Below are positions 31,096-38,981 of a stretch of 64,000 nucleotides of DNA, one piece after another. The stretch spans positions 1-64,000 of the forward strand of contig JAJCZJ010000048.1 of the NCBI GenBank assembly GCA_029262455.1, in the 5' to 3' direction. Numbering within the stretch: the first letter of the stretch is position 1; each line of letters opens with the position of its first letter. The translations under genes were made by a program, and so were the position numbers. The notes under the pieces are model-generated. The model searched no databases and was not told the origin of the DNA. It saw only the letters and a program-made list of their open reading frames with translations. The DNA is from Deltaproteobacteria bacterium (lineage in GTDB: Bacteria > Desulfobacterota > Binatia > HRBIN30 > CADEER01).

Positions 31096-34000
31096 ATGAT
31101 GCTCTGCAGTCTTGAAGGACCAGCCGCCGCGATGTCTCCGATCGAACCTCAAATTGCAACCGATCAAGCACGGGAACAGGATCTCACCGTTCTGTTCGCT
31201 GATATCTCCGGTTTCACCGCCATGTCGGAGAAACTCGACCCAGAGACTGTCACCGACATCATGAACCGCTGCTTCACCGATCTAGAAAGCGTCATCGTCG
31301 GTTACGGCGGTTCTATCGATAAGTATATCGGTGATTGTGTCATGGCCATTTTCGGCCTCAACCAGTCCGGAAGCGATGCGGTGGCGGCCGTCACGACCGC
31401 CGGCGAGCTACTCGCAACGCTCGACGACTTCAATAGCCGCGAAAAGCTGGAGAGCCCGCTCGGTCTCCATATCGGGATCGAATCGGGACGCACCCTAGTT
31501 GGCGAAATCGGCGGCGCCGGCCACCGATCCGTCACGGTCTCCGGCTCCAGCGTCACGATCGCTTCGCGTCTCGAGGACGTCTCTGATGTCGGCGAAATTT
31601 TCGTCGGGCCCAAGACACACTCCGAAACACGCGAAACGTTTGAATATGTCGCGTGCGACCCAGTCCCCGTCCGAGACAGCGCGCAACCGGTGGCTGTCTA
31701 CCAATACCTCCGCAACAAACGTGCGCGCGAAGGCATCAAGCGCGATAGCGAACGCCGCCAGGCAACCGTCGTCTTCGCATCCATCAACGGCTTCAACGAT
31801 CTCGCAGCCACTTTATCCGCCGCTGACTACAATCGCGCACTCAACCTCTGTTTCGGTGTCCTCGAAGCGGCAGTCAAAGCCTACGGCGGCGTCATCGACA
31901 AATACATCGGCGAGACCGTCATGGCTCTCTTCGGCGTACCCGACGCCATCGAAGACGCGCCCAAGCAAGCGATCAACGCGGCAATCGAGATGCGCAAGCG
32001 GCTGTCGGACCTGTACGAACGAGGACAGGTGCCCATCGAATTAACCCTGAGCACCGGGATCAACAGCGGGCTCGTCATCGCCGGTGAGATCGGCGGGCGG
32101 GTCAAGCGCGACTTCACCGTGATGGGAGATACGGTCAACCTCGCGGCGCGCCTGAAAGAAGCCGCCGCGCGTGGTGAGATTCTCATCGGACCGGCAACCT
32201 CTCGCTTCACCGAGGGACATTTCGAACTCCGAGACAGCGCTCCGCTTTCGCTCAAAGGCAAGGCAGAACCCGTCATTGCACGGAGCGTGGAATCCGACAC
32301 CGAGCAACTACACCGCACCTCCTCCGCCGACGGTGGCGCAAAGCGCGTCGGCGCCGACGGCGTGCCTATGGTCGGTCGACGCTGCGAGCTGGAGGAAATT
32401 CGCAACCGGCTCAGTGAACTCATCGGTGGTAAGGGCGGATCGCTAGCGGTTAGCGGCGACGCCGGCGTCGGCAAGACAAGACTCCTCGCGGAGGTTCTGC
32501 AACTGCCGCAAGCACAGGCCGCGACCGTGATCCAGGGACGGTGTATCTCACTCGGGGGGAACTTGAGCTTCCATCCATTCGTCGACCTTCTGCGCCGCTG
32601 GGGGGGTGTTCGCGACGACGACCGGGAAGACCAGGCCGCGCAGAGGGTCGAAAGGGCAATCCGGTCGGCATGCGGGGAGCGTGCCTCAGACATCTACCCT
32701 TTCGTGGCCCGAATGATGGGACTTTCCCTATCGGGTAAAAACTCCGCACGGGTGCAGGGGATCGAGGGTGAGGCCCTGGAGAACATGATCACCAATGCCA
32801 TGCGCGAGTTGCTCAACTCTCTATCGAGTGTGCATCCGGTTTTGCTGATTCTCGAAGACCTGCACTGGGCTGACCAGTCCTCCGTCAAACTGCTCGATAC
32901 GCTACTCAGGCTGCCGGCCCAGTCGCCGGTCTTGTTCCTCTTCTTGACGAGGCCTCACTCGGAAAAGACTTCCGACCACGTCGAAGAGCGCGCCGCCGCG
33001 ATTCTCGGCGACAGCCATCGACGCATCGACCTGACCCCGCTCAGTGATCAAGACTCACTGGTACTTGCCCAGGCGCTTCTCGACATCGAAGACCTGCCGG
33101 TCTCGTTTCGAAACATCGTTACACGCAAAGCCGAGGGCAACCCGTTCTACATCGAGGAGGTCGTTCGCTCGCTCATCGACTCTGGGGCAATCGTCGAGGA
33201 AAACGGTACCCACCGGGTGACGCAAAAGATCGACAGCGTCGAAATCCCCAACACGATTCAAGAAGTCATCATGTCGCGTGTCGATCGACTCGACGAAGCG
33301 ACCCGCCACGTCGTCCAGATCGCTTCGGTGGTCGGTCGATCCGCCCTCTTCAGCATCATCGAAGAAATCCTCAGCAACGACGACAAGCTGGATTCGGCAG
33401 GCGAAGCCGAACTCGAACGCCTCAAAGACAAGCAACTACTGCTCGAGCGTCGGGCAACGTCGATCTCCAGCGCACCAAACGCGGCGATCAGGACGGAACT
33501 CGAGTTCGTGTTCAAACACGCCCTGGCGCAGGAAGCGATCTACGCCTCGCTGCTGCAGAAGGTTCGCCGGGATCTCCACAAGCGGGTCGCCTCCGCCATC
33601 GAGTCGCTCTACACCGACCGCATCTCAGACTTCTACGGAATGCTCGCCTATCACTACAGCCGCACGGATGAGCTCGCGAAGGCAGAGGACTACCTCTTCA
33701 AGGCCGGCGACGAGGCCGCCAACTCGGCCGCATCCGGCGAGGCGCTGAACTATTTCCGCGACGCTTACCGCATATTCCAGGAGATGCACGGCGATGGCGG
33801 TGACCCGGTCCGAAAGTCTGCCCTCGAGAAGCGCATCGCGCTAGCGCTCCTCAACAGCGGCGAACAAACGGAATCCATCGATCACTTCGACGACTCACTA
33901 CGACTACTCGGCGAACCAGTTCCGAAGTCGATCTGGGCAGCCGGAGTACGATTCATCGGCGACATCACGGCAGTCCTCTTCCATGTCTACGTCGGCCATC

Positions 34001-35226
34001 GGTTTCGCAAACCGAGCACCTCGGTCGACTTCGACCACGAGAGCAACGTCTGCGAAATTTTCTACCACCGCGGCCAGGCCGAAACGACGAGCGACCCAAA
34101 ACGACTCTTCCTCGAGTTGCCAAATGGGCTAAGACGCCTCAATCGGATCGACTCGAGCAGAATCGAGAAAGCCGGCTCGATCTACGTCACCGCCGCTCTG
34201 ATCTTCGCGTACTCGGGCGTCTCTTTCCCCATCAGCCGGCGCATGCTCGACATCGCACATTCCCTGGTACGACCGGACAACCCTCGTGATTCATTCGTCT
34301 ACCAAGTGTTCGACTACGTGTACCACTACCTCCTCGGCAATTGGGACGAAGACCATTCCATCCCACACGCTGAAGTGCAGCAAGCTCTCGAACGCGGCCA
34401 GGTCTGGGACGCGACCCTGTTTGTCGGGCTCGAAATCGACCGGCTCGCAAAAAGGGGCGATTTCGATCGGACGCACGCCTACCTCACCATGCTCACCGAG
34501 ATCAACGACAACTACGGCTACACCTACGCCGGCTCCAACCGCAATGGAATGAAAGCGGTCGTGCTCGTCGAACAACGCGACCTCCGCAATGCTGCCGTCC
34601 TGGCGAGAACCCACTACATCGAAAGCGATGAACCGCCGATCCGCGTCTTCTCGCTCGGGCTCGAAGCAAAAGCCCTGGCAATGCTCGGAGACATCGACGG
34701 CGCGAAGGAGGCCCTGGCCCTGGCCGACAAGGCCATCGCAAAGGCCGAGTCAATCTCCTCCTGGCACTTGAGTACCTACTGGACCGCGCAACTCCATTGT
34801 ACGCTCGTACAAATGCGCAGCGACGGCACAGCCCGTGGGGTGGCCCGCGACGCGCGGCGCACAGTCAACCGCGCCGTCCGCACAGCTGGTTATGTCGCAA
34901 AGAACCGCGTCGAAATCCTGCGTCTAGCGGGAGATGTTTGCGCCGTGCTGGGCAATCGCAGCCGTGCACGGAAGTTCTACTCACAATCGTGGGAGACCGG
35001 GGAGAAAATGGGGACGAGGGCCGAGTTGGCCCGCCTGCGCATCTCGCTGGCCAACTTTCTCAATTCTTCCGAGGAGACATTTCTCGGCGCCAAATCATCC
35101 GAACATCGAGCCGCCGGCGAGCAAGAACTCTCCGCAATGAACCTTACTTGGGATTTTGATCCGACTCAGGGTCTCCGCGATACGGATTTCGCGCGGGCCA
35201 CAGAGCCCCGGGGCAGCGCCGCGTAG
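31096..35226 (+). CDS. Tandem class III adenylate cyclase domains with AAA/TPR region
   Basis: A 1376-residue soluble protein. Two class III cyclase domains come first (about 28-205 and 220-395). Domain 1 has the metal aspartates (Asp36 in FADISGF, Asp80 in KYIGD) but Ser151 and Thr154 where the adenine Asp and transition-state Asn belong. Domain 2 is the reverse: Ser229 and Glu273 in place of the metal Asps, while Asp345, Asn348 and Arg352 (VMGDTVNLAARL) are intact. The AAA/STAND ATPase has a P-loop GDAGVGKT (454-461) and Walker B LLILED (587-588). A helical TPR-like C-terminal half follows. The ATG at 31096 or 31099 sits very close to GAGGG; 31132 is an alternative. Five bases separate it from the radical SAM gene. 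It makes cAMP if the two domains pair. Confidence 0.85.
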   Translation: MMLCSLEGPAAAMSPIEPQIATDQAREQDLTVLFADISGFTAMSEKLDPETVTDIMNRCFTDLESVIVGYGGSIDKYIGDCVMAIFGLNQSGSDAVAAVTTAGELLATLDDFNSREKLESPLGLHIGIESGRTLVGEIGGAGHRSVTVSGSSVTIASRLEDVSDVGEIFVGPKTHSETRETFEYVACDPVPVRDSAQPVAVYQYLRNKRAREGIKRDSERRQATVVFASINGFNDLAATLSAADYNRALNLCFGVLEAAVKAYGGVIDKYIGETVMALFGVPDAIEDAPKQAINAAIEMRKRLSDLYERGQVPIELTLSTGINSGLVIAGEIGGRVKRDFTVMGDTVNLAARLKEAAARGEILIGPATSRFTEGHFELRDSAPLSLKGKAEPVIARSVESDTEQLHRTSSADGGAKRVGADGVPMVGRRCELEEIRNRLSELIGGKGGSLAVSGDAGVGKTRLLAEVLQLPQAQAATVIQGRCISLGGNLSFHPFVDLLRRWGGVRDDDREDQAAQRVERAIRSACGERASDIYPFVARMMGLSLSGKNSARVQGIEGEALENMITNAMRELLNSLSSVHPVLLILEDLHWADQSSVKLLDTLLRLPAQSPVLFLFLTRPHSEKTSDHVEERAAAILGDSHRRIDLTPLSDQDSLVLAQALLDIEDLPVSFRNIVTRKAEGNPFYIEEVVRSLIDSGAIVEENGTHRVTQKIDSVEIPNTIQEVIMSRVDRLDEATRHVVQIASVVGRSALFSIIEEILSNDDKLDSAGEAELERLKDKQLLLERRATSISSAPNAAIRTELEFVFKHALAQEAIYASLLQKVRRDLHKRVASAIESLYTDRISDFYGMLAYHYSRTDELAKAEDYLFKAGDEAANSAASGEALNYFRDAYRIFQEMHGDGGDPVRKSALEKRIALALLNSGEQTESIDHFDDSLRLLGEPVPKSIWAAGVRFIGDITAVLFHVYVGHRFRKPSTSVDFDHESNVCEIFYHRGQAETTSDPKRLFLELPNGLRRLNRIDSSRIEKAGSIYVTAALIFAYSGVSFPISRRMLDIAHSLVRPDNPRDSFVYQVFDYVYHYLLGNWDEDHSIPHAEVQQALERGQVWDATLFVGLEIDRLAKRGDFDRTHAYLTMLTEINDNYGYTYAGSNRNGMKAVVLVEQRDLRNAAVLARTHYIESDEPPIRVFSLGLEAKALAMLGDIDGAKEALALADKAIAKAESISSWHLSTYWTAQLHCTLVQMRSDGTARGVARDARRTVNRAVRTAGYVAKNRVEILRLAGDVCAVLGNRSRARKFYSQSWETGEKMGTRAELARLRISLANFLNSSEETFLGAKSSEHRAAGEQELSAMNLTWDFDPTQGLRDTDFARATEPRGSAA

Positions 35227-35231
35227 CAATC

Positions 35232-36836
35232 ATGCTCAACGTCATCATCGTTAAACCAAGCAAGTATGCCGTCGACGGCTACGTCGATCGATTTCGCCGC
35301 GGCTTCATGCCCAACACGACCCTGTACCACCTTGCGGCGATGACGCCAGACATTGTCGGCGATACAGCAATCCGCGTCACGACCATCGATGAGTACATCG
35401 AGACCGACCTCGCCTACCTAGGCCGCCTACACCCGACACCCGGACAGGAAACACTGGTCGCCTTCGCCGGAGTTCAAAGCCACCAATTGAATCGCACCCT
35501 CGACCTGGCGGCGTTCGCAAGACGAAACGGCGTCCGCAACATTGTCGTCGGGGGCCCGCACCCGATGACCTGCGATACCTCTGCGCTCGAGGGTCGCGGC
35601 GTTAGTTTTTGCCGCGCCGAAGCCGAGCTCGTATGGTCGCGCATCCTCGACGATTCGATTCGAGGCACTTTGCTTCCAACCTATGGCTCTGGTGAAAGAT
35701 GGCAGGCGCAGCTGGACCCTCCCGTAGTCCAGCCGCCGAGCGAGAAAGAGATCTGTCGGTACGCGGCACAAATGTTCGGCGTTTACCCAGCACGAGGATG
35801 CCCATATCGCTGCACCTTCTGCTCCGTGATCAAGCTCGCGGGTCACACCGTGCGCGCACAGCCGATCGAGACGACCATGGCGACCCTGCGCGCGGCGAAG
35901 GCAGGCGGCGTGCTGATGATCCATTTCACGACCGACAACTTCAACAAGTACCCCGAAGCTCCGCAGATGCTGCAGGCAATGATCGACGAGTCGATCAACC
36001 TGCCGTTCTTCGTGCAGTGCGATGCCCAGATCGTTCGACAGCCTGATCTTGTCGAACTACTAGCGCGAGCCGGCTGCTATCAGATGTTCCTCGGCTTCGA
36101 ATCACTCGACGAAACGACACTATTGGACGTCAAGAAATCGCAGAACCGCCCCGACCAGTACGGCGAGATCCTTCGCATGTGCGATGACTTCGGAATCGGC
36201 GTGCACTTTTCGAACATCATCGGCTTTCCGAACGACACGCGAGCCTCGATCGAAAGCCACTTGGATACCGTGCGCCGCCTGCGACCAGAGGTCGCGACCT
36301 TCTACATACTGACCCCGTTCCCCGGCACTGAAATGTACGACGAATACCGATCGCAAGGACTGCTGACGGAAGCCAACCTCGACCGCTACGACGCGACCTT
36401 CCCCACCTGGCGACACCCGACCCTTGGCCGCGAAGAACTCCTCGAACTACTCCACACTTGCCATCGAAAGTTCTATTCGGCACCCGATGTCGTAACAAAG
36501 TCTTTGCGCTGGGCTTGGCGCAATCGCCAGAGCGATAACATTCTCCGGAAGATCGCGACGCCGGCGTTCTCGTTTTTGTCGCGCCTCGCAGCTCACAACC
36601 GCCAACACCCACTATCCGGCGGGATCGGTCGCACCACCCTCGATCACTGCTCCAACTATTCCGAGCTCCGTCGGAGTACGTTTGGATTCAACCTGGCGCC
36701 GTTGCCGGAAAGCCTTCACGGTCCGTCAGCGAACTCGCCCGACACCCCAGCAGGCGAGAATCGCTACCCCGGCACAGAGCCAGGCGAACCAGTCCCCCCA
36801 ACGGGCGTAGAACGATTGGTCGCTGCGCGGATATAG
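35232..36836 (+). CDS. B12-binding-type radical SAM protein
   Basis: A 534-residue enzyme. The N-terminal 130 residues have the Rossmann-like cobalamin-binding type of fold (AFAGVQSHQLNRTLDLAAFARRNGVRNIVVGGPHPM), although the DxHxxG ligand motif is not evident. The radical SAM cluster motif is ARGCPYRCTFCSV (Cys190, Cys194, Cys197), with GFESLDE and FSNIIGFPNDT downstream. Members modify lipids, tetrapyrroles, tRNA or natural products; the substrate is unknown. It lies five bases after the cyclase gene and is certainly co-transcribed. The last 37 residues (from 36726) are coded on the strand opposite the 3' end of lnt and look low in conserved content, so the natural end may be less important. 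Confidence 0.85.
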   Translation: MLNVIIVKPSKYAVDGYVDRFRRGFMPNTTLYHLAAMTPDIVGDTAIRVTTIDEYIETDLAYLGRLHPTPGQETLVAFAGVQSHQLNRTLDLAAFARRNGVRNIVVGGPHPMTCDTSALEGRGVSFCRAEAELVWSRILDDSIRGTLLPTYGSGERWQAQLDPPVVQPPSEKEICRYAAQMFGVYPARGCPYRCTFCSVIKLAGHTVRAQPIETTMATLRAAKAGGVLMIHFTTDNFNKYPEAPQMLQAMIDESINLPFFVQCDAQIVRQPDLVELLARAGCYQMFLGFESLDETTLLDVKKSQNRPDQYGEILRMCDDFGIGVHFSNIIGFPNDTRASIESHLDTVRRLRPEVATFYILTPFPGTEMYDEYRSQGLLTEANLDRYDATFPTWRHPTLGREELLELLHTCHRKFYSAPDVVTKSLRWAWRNRQSDNILRKIATPAFSFLSRLAAHNRQHPLSGGIGRTTLDHCSNYSELRRSTFGFNLAPLPESLHGPSANSPDTPAGENRYPGTEPGEPVPPTGVERLVAARI

Positions 36837-38270
36837 CCAGCCGACCGCCGCATCGGCCGCGAACTCCTTGGTCGCCAGTTGAATCGCGCCAGTCGGATCG
36901 ATGACGACCGACGGCCCCGAGGTCGACGATCGGACGAGAAAGCGGCGGTACTCCACGGCGCGAAATCGCGCCATGTCCAACGACTCGCGCGCGAACTGAA
37001 CCGATCCCAGCCACGTGTCATTGGCCAGAGTCACCAATACTTCGGCCCCCGCCCGCACCCGCTCACCTACCAACTCCGGAAACATCACTTCGTTGCAGAT
37101 CGCCACCCCAACTCGACCAATCGGCGTATTGAGGATCTCGAGCTTGCTGCCCGGGACAAACTCTTTCACCCCATCGAACTGACGACGCACCAGGCGAACA
37201 CTCGCCAGCGGATAGTACTCTGCAAACGGCAACAGCTGCTGCTTGTCATAACGACCCGTGATCTTCCCTTGCGAATCAAATACGAACGCCGCGTTGTAGT
37301 ATACGTCACGCTCCCCGCCGCGGTCGCGCGCCGGACCGCCGGCGAGCAGGGGCACCGCCGCAGGTCGCAAAACACTGGCGATCGAGTGCCGGAACATCGC
37401 TTCCTCCTCGGGAAAGAACGTCATCGAAGACTCCGGCCAGATCACCAGATCCACCTGCGATGCTCCGACCAGATCACGCGTCATGCGCAAATAGCGCTCC
37501 AAGCTGATGCCGTAGAACTCCTGCTTCCATTGCCAGCCGAAATCAAGGTTCGCTTGGACCAGGCCCACCGTCTTGCGATGGCCGGCCATGGCTTCGCCTT
37601 CGACGACAAAGTGCTGCAAGCGCAGCGCACCATAGCCTTGCGCCAAGACCACCAGAACGCCGACAATCAAAGCCCCGGACCCCGCGCTGCGTATCCGCGT
37701 GGTGCCGATCGCCAGCAACAGCTCGACCACGGCGAGCTGCACCGCACAGACGAGAAACGACACCCCGTAGATCCCCACCACGTCGGCAATCTGCATCGTC
37801 TGTAGCGCGCCCGCCTGGGTGTAGCCAAGCATCCCGAACGGGTCCTGAAAAAAGAAACGAACTCGCCCGAGCTCGCACGCGGCCCAAGTCGCTGCGCCGA
37901 CCAACGGTACACACCAAGCGGGACATCGAGCGAGACGTCGATACACCGCGGTAAACAACCACACCGACGGCGCCACCGTGAGGAGCCAGACTGCGAGAAA
38001 CATCGCAGCCGCGACGCCGATACCTCGGTCGTAGTAAGTCGATACCGACTCCACCAACCAGGCAGCGACCAGGTAGACTCCGGCCAGTGTCGTCGCGCTG
38101 GTGACGAGAAGAGCCTCGCCCAATCCGCATCGCCGAATCGCCACAAACCAGGGGACGAAAGCCACCCACCCCAACCAATGAACGCTCTCCAATGGGAAGG
38201 CCCACGAGTACAAGAATGGGGTGATCGCGACCGCTACGATTGACGTGGTCTCTGGTCGTCTGCCAAACAC
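36726..38270 (-). CDS. lnt: Apolipoprotein N-acyltransferase
   Basis: About 514 residues. The N-terminal half has six or so membrane helices with the family block FFFQDPFGMLGYTQAGALQTMQIADVVGIYGVSFLV. The C-terminal nitrilase domain has the catalytic triad Glu in VIWPESSM, Lys in GRYDKQQLLPFAEY and Cys in ICNEVMFPE (residues about 280, 343 and 392 from the chosen start). The last membrane helix (WGDWFAWLCAGVAILACW) is intact. It N-acylates the amino-terminal Cys of lipoproteins at the periplasmic face, fitting the many lipoproteins here. The start is uncertain: GTG at 38270 (or TTG at 38273) precedes the first helix; no clear ribosome site. Its 3' end overlaps the radical SAM gene by 111 bases. 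Confidence 0.9.
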   Translation of the reverse strand: MFGRRPETTSIVAVAITPFLYSWAFPLESVHWLGWVAFVPWFVAIRRCGLGEALLVTSATTLAGVYLVAAWLVESVSTYYDRGIGVAAAMFLAVWLLTVAPSVWLFTAVYRRLARCPAWCVPLVGAATWAACELGRVRFFFQDPFGMLGYTQAGALQTMQIADVVGIYGVSFLVCAVQLAVVELLLAIGTTRIRSAGSGALIVGVLVVLAQGYGALRLQHFVVEGEAMAGHRKTVGLVQANLDFGWQWKQEFYGISLERYLRMTRDLVGASQVDLVIWPESSMTFFPEEEAMFRHSIASVLRPAAVPLLAGGPARDRGGERDVYYNAAFVFDSQGKITGRYDKQQLLPFAEYYPLASVRLVRRQFDGVKEFVPGSKLEILNTPIGRVGVAICNEVMFPELVGERVRAGAEVLVTLANDTWLGSVQFARESLDMARFRAVEYRRFLVRSSTSGPSVVIDPTGAIQLATKEFAADAAVGWLYPRSDQSFYARWGDWFAWLCAGVAILACWGVGRVR

Positions 38271-38315
38271 CAAACGACCATTCGCAGTGCTCGACTTCTT
38301 TTTCAACGACGCCCG

Positions 38316-38981
38316 ATGAAGATTCAACGACAAGATTTCTCGGCGCCGGTGCCGTTCCGCCGCTTCTTCAACTTCTGGCAAGCTGCCCTGCGACCGGTTT
38401 ACCGGTACCTATTCGGAATGGACAGCAGCGGCATCGATGCCGTCCCTTGGGGCACCCCCTTCATCATCGCAAGCAATCACCAATCGATGATGGACTGGTC
38501 CTTCTTGGCCTATCACTGTCCCTATCTCGTACGATTCGTCGCTCACCGTGAGTACTTCGAAAACCCGTTCCTGCGAATCGGACTGCGCCTCAACGGAGCA
38601 CTGTGCGTCCGAACCGATCGCCCCGATATCCGCGGAATGCGCGTCGCACGATCGGTCCTCGCCGCCGGCGAACCGCTGGTCATTTTCCCGGAAGGGATGA
38701 TCTCACGCAGCGGCCGCGTCGGGACCGGCCAACCCGGGGTGATCGCACTTGCCTGGCACGCCGGTGTACCGATCGTTCCAGTCGCCATCGACGGCGCCAA
38801 TTCGGCGCTACCTCGAGATCGCTGGATTCCGAGAAAACACCCGGTTGTCGTACGCTTCGGCGAAATTCTACCGCCGCCGCCCGGTCACCCCCCAACGCTG
38901 CGCCGCGAGCTTGCTGAGAAGCTGACGGTCTACATTGAAGCACTCCGTACCGGGATACCAAAACCGCCACGACCGTGGTAA
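38316..38981 (+). CDS. PlsC-like 1-acyl-sn-glycerol-3-phosphate acyltransferase family protein
   Basis: A 221-residue acyltransferase. The family blocks are NHQSMMD (Asn54, His55, Asp60; NHxxxxD), RTDRPD in the substrate region, FPEG (124-127) and VPIVPVAIDGAN. There is a short amphipathic N-terminus and a hydrophobic first helix. It probably esterifies the 2-position of a lysophospholipid, or a related acceptor, with an acyl chain from ACP or CoA. It is divergent from lnt with a short gap; no strong ribosome site is visible before the ATG. A desaturase gene follows on the same strand after a hairpin at 39000, so local genes handle membrane acyl chains. Confidence 0.88.
   Translation: MKIQRQDFSAPVPFRRFFNFWQAALRPVYRYLFGMDSSGIDAVPWGTPFIIASNHQSMMDWSFLAYHCPYLVRFVAHREYFENPFLRIGLRLNGALCVRTDRPDIRGMRVARSVLAAGEPLVIFPEGMISRSGRVGTGQPGVIALAWHAGVPIVPVAIDGANSALPRDRWIPRKHPVVVRFGEILPPPPGHPPTLRRELAEKLTVYIEALRTGIPKPPRPW

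Follow-up and report, generated by a model that had tools for sequence, protein, structure and literature searches.

A putative split-site class III cyclase in a single soluble bacterial chain, and its probable origin apart from human soluble adenylyl cyclase

Can two cyclase domains that have each lost a different part of the active site form one working enzyme inside a single bacterial chain, and where would such an arrangement have come from? Both questions are raised by an open reading frame (ORF) in a 64,000-nucleotide stretch of genome from a Deltaproteobacteria bacterium (the whole stretch analysed is called the window below), for which an initial annotation had proposed a composite catalytic site. 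From the split of the active-site residues, its conservation among homologues and the predicted pairing of the domains, we infer that this ORF quite probably encodes a soluble cyclase of class III (IIIb-like), with adenylyl cyclase as the likeliest activity, whose tandem domains pair within one chain to give one working and one dead site, whose NTPase/TPR half probably exerts control, and whose arrangement arose separately from that of human soluble adenylyl cyclase (sAC, ADCY10).

Domain layout and the divided active site

The ORF at 31096-35226 contains two adjacent PF00211 domains, scoring 83.0 and 79.6 bits (cut-off 21.9), with an AAA_16 domain behind them (Table 1), in agreement with the tandem cyclase domains first read from the sequence. 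The AAA/TPR part that was read behind them is borne out by Pfam for AAA_16 and by a structural model for a TPR-like solenoid, but not by any Pfam TPR family in a scan of the protein. The solenoid call comes from modelling residues 640-1376 (12 sequences, pLDDT 83.7, pTM 0.70), where helices predominate from about residue 824 on, and from weak Foldseek matches (best E 2.6e-5) that include TPR proteins and a STAND-TPR structure. With its Walker A motif and a Walker B-like VLLILED at residue 582, the protein shows a P-loop NTPase followed by a helical repeat solenoid, the layout of a STAND-type regulator. A rough hydropathy scan found no membrane-helix-like stretch (highest 19-residue Kyte-Doolittle mean 1.53). 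Assignment as a TOMM system kinase/cyclase (TIGR03903) was ruled out, the protein scoring 284.6 bits against a family cut-off of 705.75.

Table 1. Features of the tandem cyclase gene and its neighbours, in window positions
Feature	Position	Strand	Basis or remark
cNMP-binding (residues 313-390) and FeeM/GNAT-type acyltransferase (58-214) protein, 460 aa	23451-24833	-	Pfam
PD40/TSP_3 protein, 1871 aa	24898-30513	-	adjoins cyclase
Tandem cyclase - AAA_16 - TPR-like solenoid gene, 1376 aa	31096-35226	+	ORF, Pfam, model
Cyclase domain 1, residues 24-205	31165-31710	+	PF00211, own profile
D36 codon (domain 1)	31201-31203	+	metal Asp
D80 codon (domain 1)	31333-31335	+	metal Asp
Linker between cyclase domains, residues 206-215	31711-31740	+	low pLDDT in model
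Cyclase domain 2, residues 216-399	31741-32292	+	PF00211, own profile
K269 codon (domain 2)	31900-31902	+	
T341 codon (domain 2)	32116-32118	+	
N348 codon (domain 2)	32137-32139	+	
R352 codon (domain 2)	32149-32151	+	
AAA_16 domain, residues 425-614	32368-32937	+	Pfam
Walker A GDAGVGKT, residues 454-461	32455-32478	+	within AAA_16
TPR-like alpha solenoid, about residues 824-1347	33565-35136	+	model, weak Foldseek matches
Radical SAM gene	35232-36836	+	few bases past cyclase stop
Lnt-like (apolipoprotein N-acyltransferase) gene	36726-38381	-	

At six key positions (first Asp, base Lys, second Asp, base Thr/Asp, Asn and Arg) domain 1 reads DKDTTR and domain 2 reads SKETNR; a residue alignment gives DKDLDL for C1 and NKCTNR for C2 of human sAC. 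Domain 1 retains D36, D80, K76, T147 and R158 and has T154 in place of the Asn, and domain 2 retains K269, T341, N348 and R352, its metal Asps being replaced by S229 and E273. The residues on which the original proposal was built (D36, D80, S151, T154, S229, E273, D345, N348 and R352) all lie at the positions it gave, and its description of domain 2, with replaced metal Asps and retained Asn and Arg, stands. The adenine-selecting position, however, had been placed at S151 and D345, and alignment with C2 of sAC and of type II transmembrane adenylyl cyclases (tmACs) puts it seven residues before the Asn, at T147 and T341. This position holds Thr in sAC C2 and Asp in tmAC C2, and the base-facing Lys of the window protein is K76 in domain 1 and K269 in domain 2. 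T405 of sAC C2, which with N412 forms a pair seven residues apart (a numbering reproduced here), and the corresponding Asp of tmAC C2 are what we take to be the base-selecting residues. Roles of D47, D99, K334, N412 and R416 in sAC are listed in Table 1 of PMC12867704. Domain 1 has thus lost the Asn, as had been claimed, but not its base-recognition residues, because T147 and K76 are still there; Arg158 is retained as well.

The two Asps, the Asn and the Arg of one class III site are therefore all present, but across two domains (D36 and D80; N348 and R352). Given DKDTTR and SKETNR, a site made of the domain-1 Asps and the domain-2 Lys, Thr, Asn and Arg is complete, and its mirror image is left without both Asps and the Asn. 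Judged by these residues, neither domain could be complete as a homodimer.

An AF2 model of residues 13-415 (11 sequences, pLDDT 80.5, pTM 0.77) predicts a C1-C2 pseudo-heterodimer arrangement within one chain, the intramolecular dimer that the first reading had envisaged. Aligned with VIA-align over both domains, its best structural match is single-chain human AC9 (Z 39.7, 359 residues, 2.9 A), and human sAC 4usu is also covered in both domains (Z 33.9, 352 residues, 3.0 A); Foldseek superposes the whole chain less tightly, its best AC9 and sAC rows giving query TM 0.72-0.75 and rmsd 6.3-7.7 A. The composite site might instead form between two chains, with the NTPase oligomerising them and activity depending on assembly. 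The residue data fit cis and trans pairing alike, the linker is only some 10 residues long, and oligomerisation is known for STAND NTPases. We nevertheless regard pairing between chains as unlikely, since the model, whose AF2 input was one chain, already gives the C1-C2 arrangement.

Conservation and polarity of the split

Homologues were gathered by one contig scan (499 relatives, best 80 kept) and by whole-genome searches of the window's class (148 genomes), of its own phylum (395 genomes drawn) and of the phyla around loci L016, L069, L028 and L080 (251, 194, 149 and 235 genomes, respectively). Any ORF sharing a 50-residue stretch of its last cyclase domain with one already taken was dropped before counting, which left 37 distinct among the 41 both-domain matches listed in the phylum around L016, and two single-domain ORFs with Asn or Arg missing near locus ends (L237 and L240) were left out of the tandem counts. 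The dereplicated set holds 183 cyclase ORFs, 128 single-domain and 55 two-domain, and in 49 of the latter the domains lie no more than 93 residues apart (adjacent tandems). The window's class contributes 11 adjacent tandems, the phylum around L016 (Chloroflexota) 37 and that around L069 (Nodularia) one.

The split is the same throughout. Under a completeness test of "two Asps + Asn + Arg", the site combining domain-1 Asps with domain-2 Asn and Arg is complete in 49/49 distinct adjacent tandems, which are related sequences and not independent events, and the mirror site is complete in 0/49. Homologues with the same AAA part and with both sites intact or both dead had been named as what would speak against a composite site; none has both complete, and 49/49 have exactly one. 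A P-loop motif follows the cyclase pair in 48/49. Residue loss is not total everywhere, as domain 1 is complete on its own in 5/49 and domain 2 in 6/49. Single-domain ORFs, in contrast, are mostly intact: of 128, 124 retain the first Asp, 125 the second, 121 the Asn and 120 the Arg, and on these counts the division of losses in adjacent tandems appears to be beyond chance. The search profiles A1 and A3 were made from split tandems and may favour recovery of further split tandems. Taken with the predicted model, the conserved split gives good support to the central claim of the initial annotation, one composite site in a single soluble chain.

The same conservation bears on whether the tandem could be a catalytically dead pseudo-cyclase, which would bind a nucleotide (ATP or another) and do no more than signal to the AAA/TPR part. 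A Pseudomonas aeruginosa protein, 6yii, is titled "Class III adenylyl cyclase-like ATP-binding protein" and, compared by title, lends this idea some colour: its fold aligns with both domains of the model (Z 30.4, 352 residues, 17% identity), and a literature search recognised no paper on it. Yet the window protein has one complete Asp, Asp, Lys, Thr, Asn and Arg set, and the Asps, Asn and Arg persist in 49/49 homologues. Such retention would be difficult to account for if catalysis were not under selection, so we hold a dead enzyme to be distinctly unlikely and favour a cyclase with one working site.

Within the window's class close tandems were seen in 10/148 genomes, plus G091. No both-domain matches were listed outside this class in its own phylum (395 genomes drawn, E 1e-60) or in the phylum around L028 (149 genomes, E 1e-50), no close tandems were listed in the phylum around L080 (235 genomes, E 1e-50), and one both-domain match was listed in that around L069 (194 genomes, E 1e-45); in these large searches, the E thresholds and the scoring of some candidates per genome may hide distant tandems.

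A second kind of tandem shows the opposite polarity. In 10 ORFs (L127, L128, L129, L131, L134, L139, L236, L239, L241 and L243; six from the 55 two-domain ORFs and four found additionally) the cyclase domains lie about 220-310 residues apart. All 10 have Asn and Arg in the first domain and both Asps in the second, which has lost either Asn or Arg or both, leaving, by the same test, one complete site of reversed orientation relative to adjacent tandems. The first domain of 9/10 possesses Asps as well (L239, the exception, has Glu at the first Asp) and could therefore act as a homodimer. At the base position these first domains carry Ala, His, Asn or Arg, not Thr.

Relation to human sAC and origin of the tandem

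The closest known system is human sAC. Comparison with PDB sequences put the single-domain cyclases CyaB and CyaC on top, and the likeness to sAC emerged from the residue alignment and the model, not from that ranking. Human sAC is described in text of PMC4506562 as one soluble chain with tandem C1-C2 and a single competent site, and in text of PMC12802110 its full-length form has a P-loop and an autoinhibitory region behind C2; by these accounts, the single-chain split-site layout is already known. The window protein shares with it N-terminal tandem cyclase domains in a soluble chain, Asps from the first and Lys, Thr, Asn and Arg from the second, one site that is putatively competent in the window protein, and a P-loop with further regulatory parts behind the pair. 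It differs in sequence, with only 19% identity between domain 1 and C1 and 24% between domain 2 and C2, and in its linker of about 10 residues against 34 in sAC (216-249, Table 1 of PMC12867704). Bicarbonate in human sAC is bound via K95 and R176, in the region that corresponds to the dead site, according to passages of PMC4506562 and PMC12867704; the window protein has K76 at the K95 column, and S157, with R158 beside it, at that of R176. Activation by bicarbonate and calcium is, in the relevant text of PMC12867704, not general even among animals.

Mammalian membrane cyclases had been the original point of comparison. The likeness is real in that tmACs (AC9, AC5 and AC8) form a C1-C2 pseudo-heterodimer in which Asps and Asn/Arg are divided in the same way, but the comparison overlooked human sAC as the closer system. 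The window protein differs from tmACs, which have two six-helix membrane domains, in showing no membrane-helix-like stretch in the rough scan, and it has Thr, not Asp, at the base position. Bacterial single-domain cyclase-AAA-TPR proteins (for example L122, L124 and L137 of the window's class) are related to the window protein in its second cyclase domain and its AAA part; unlike the tandem, they hold both half-sites in one domain and would be expected to form homodimers.

The trees separate the window's tandem from sAC. In a tree of 59 domains, human C1 groups with the first domains (support 100/99) and C2 with the second domains (99/93) of lineage A (Chloroflexota-type), which comprises eight proteins from the phylum around L016 and L207, human sAC being represented in the trees by one sequence with long branches. 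The nearest row to human sAC is L207 (G826:C26:28400-35400), a bacterial tandem with a P-loop that is 32% identical to C1 and 35% to C2. A lineage B is made up of four further proteins of the same phylum, whose first and second domains all fall in a single set (100/98), and in one of them, L159, the protein's own two domains pair together, perhaps by a further duplication as read from the tree. Domains 1 and 2 of the window protein share a set (100/99) with five single-domain proteins, of which three belong to the window's class, so that domain 1 is not grouped with C1 nor domain 2 with C2. Among own-class tandems, 8/9 first domains form one clade (99/97), that of L011 lying outside, and 9/9 second domains form another (99/93).

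AU tests and the AAA domain were examined as well. Jointly constraining own-class first domains with lineage-A first domains and own-class second with lineage-A second domains costs a delta lnL of 80.8 (p-AU 0.0001, LG+F+G4). Of the single constraints, that on the second domains is rejected (P = 0.003) and that on the first domains is not (P = 0.155); a single clade of all first domains is rejected (P = 0.0004). The AAA tree has a set of 22 members (support 96) made up of the ten own-class tandems, seven single-domain proteins and five spaced tandems. Lineage A (92) and 4/5 lineage-B rows (100) stand separate from it, the fifth, L159, lying elsewhere; own-class tandems do not form one clade within this tree.

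Our first idea, that the protein is an orthologue of animal sAC, with one ancient tandem inherited by both, did not survive the richer trees and the joint AU test, and we now judge it very unlikely. Layout and split are identical in the two proteins, and some AU tests do not reject joining them, namely the first-domain constraint above and those on a smaller set lacking the Chloroflexota tandems (P = 0.50 and 0.60); a tree without Chloroflexota rows leaves sAC on long, unresolved branches. Against these stand the placing of human C1 and C2 in lineage A and of the window's domains with single-domain proteins, the joint rejection, and the agreement of the AAA tree. Together, the domain trees, the AU tests and the AAA tree suggest that the window's tandem came from a single-domain cyclase-AAA-TPR protein within the wider lineage to which it belongs. 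Most likely, as these phylogenies are read, it arose separately and converged on the sAC arrangement; the main alternative is gene conversion between the two domains, which could imitate separate duplications.

More generally, and with about even credence, we propose that a bacterial pseudo-heterodimer with one live and one dead site has arisen independently, on one shared AAA/TPR chassis, three times or more. Close tandems would use the first domain as Asp donor and the second as Asn/Arg donor, those more than 200 residues apart would mirror this, human sAC would derive from one such lineage and the window's class would have re-invented the design, with the dead site freed each time as a potential sensor.

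Two-domain sAC-like cyclases in bacteria were reportedly described by Kobayashi et al. in 2004; together with the animal split-site soluble cyclases that carry a P-loop part, these mean that the window protein is not a new kind. Searches of a literature collection found no description of the window's tandem family, of repeated separate origins of the split or its reversal in spaced tandems, or of human sAC placed beside one bacterial tandem lineage. Potentially new are the repeated origin of the split, the mirror polarity and the placing of sAC (one human sequence on long branches).

Proposed working and genomic surroundings

In the working that we favour, the two catalytic domains would fold onto each other inside one chain, domain 1 giving the metal Asps D36 and D80 and domain 2 giving K269 and T341 for the base and N348 and R352 for catalysis, and ATP would bind between them at the complete site, by analogy with sAC. 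The pseudo-symmetric second site (S229, E273 and T154) would be dead and may act as a regulatory pocket, in which K76 and R158 beside S157 would allow a putative anion site. The STAND-like NTPase and TPR solenoid probably hold or release the catalytic pair on a signal, and by comparison with full-length human sAC this half is the likely switch and, as first proposed, may be the sensor.

Human sAC is a drug target, and little is understood of its large regulatory half. If the reading above is right, bacteria hold an independent parallel of this enzyme, and their full-length proteins may be more tractable than the human form. The dead second site would be an obvious candidate pocket for a regulatory ligand, and a split repeatedly made the same way round would hint at a structural rule by which the domain adjoining the regulator keeps the Asn/Arg helix.

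The surroundings bear on the product. The enzyme could instead make another cyclic nucleotide, such as cGMP or, as in Pycsar, one with a pyrimidine base, and PADLOC PycC models do match the cyclase domains (best E 1.1e-42), as general class III matches. Lys and Thr at the base positions follow the sAC C2 pattern, however, and Pfam found no effector domain in 10 neighbouring ORFs but that of the cNMP-binding acyltransferase, PADLOC having been applied to two neighbours; we give a different product a slim chance and keep to an adenylyl cyclase as the likeliest reading. The genome's inventory for cyclic nucleotides comprises 14 PF00211 and 10 PF00027 (cyclic-nucleotide-binding) matches. The acyltransferase lies about 6 kb from the cyclase and is conceivably its cAMP-controlled effector; no homologue stands beside tandem cyclases in 17 loci compared.

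The same 17 loci contain no homologue of the radical SAM gene, whose nearest NCBIfam model is HpnJ, far under its cut-off. The upstream stretches examined of G002, G068, G103 and G106 hold no homologue of the PD40/TSP_3 protein; L011 (G144) has one immediately upstream of its tandem cyclase, at L011 25-5052, and L224 (G086) also has one upstream. An Lnt-like gene is not found downstream of the tandem cyclase in G144; it is present there in G002, G062, G068, G086 and G103 (L009, L212, L215, L226 and L227), and in the window the radical SAM gene stands between it and the cyclase.
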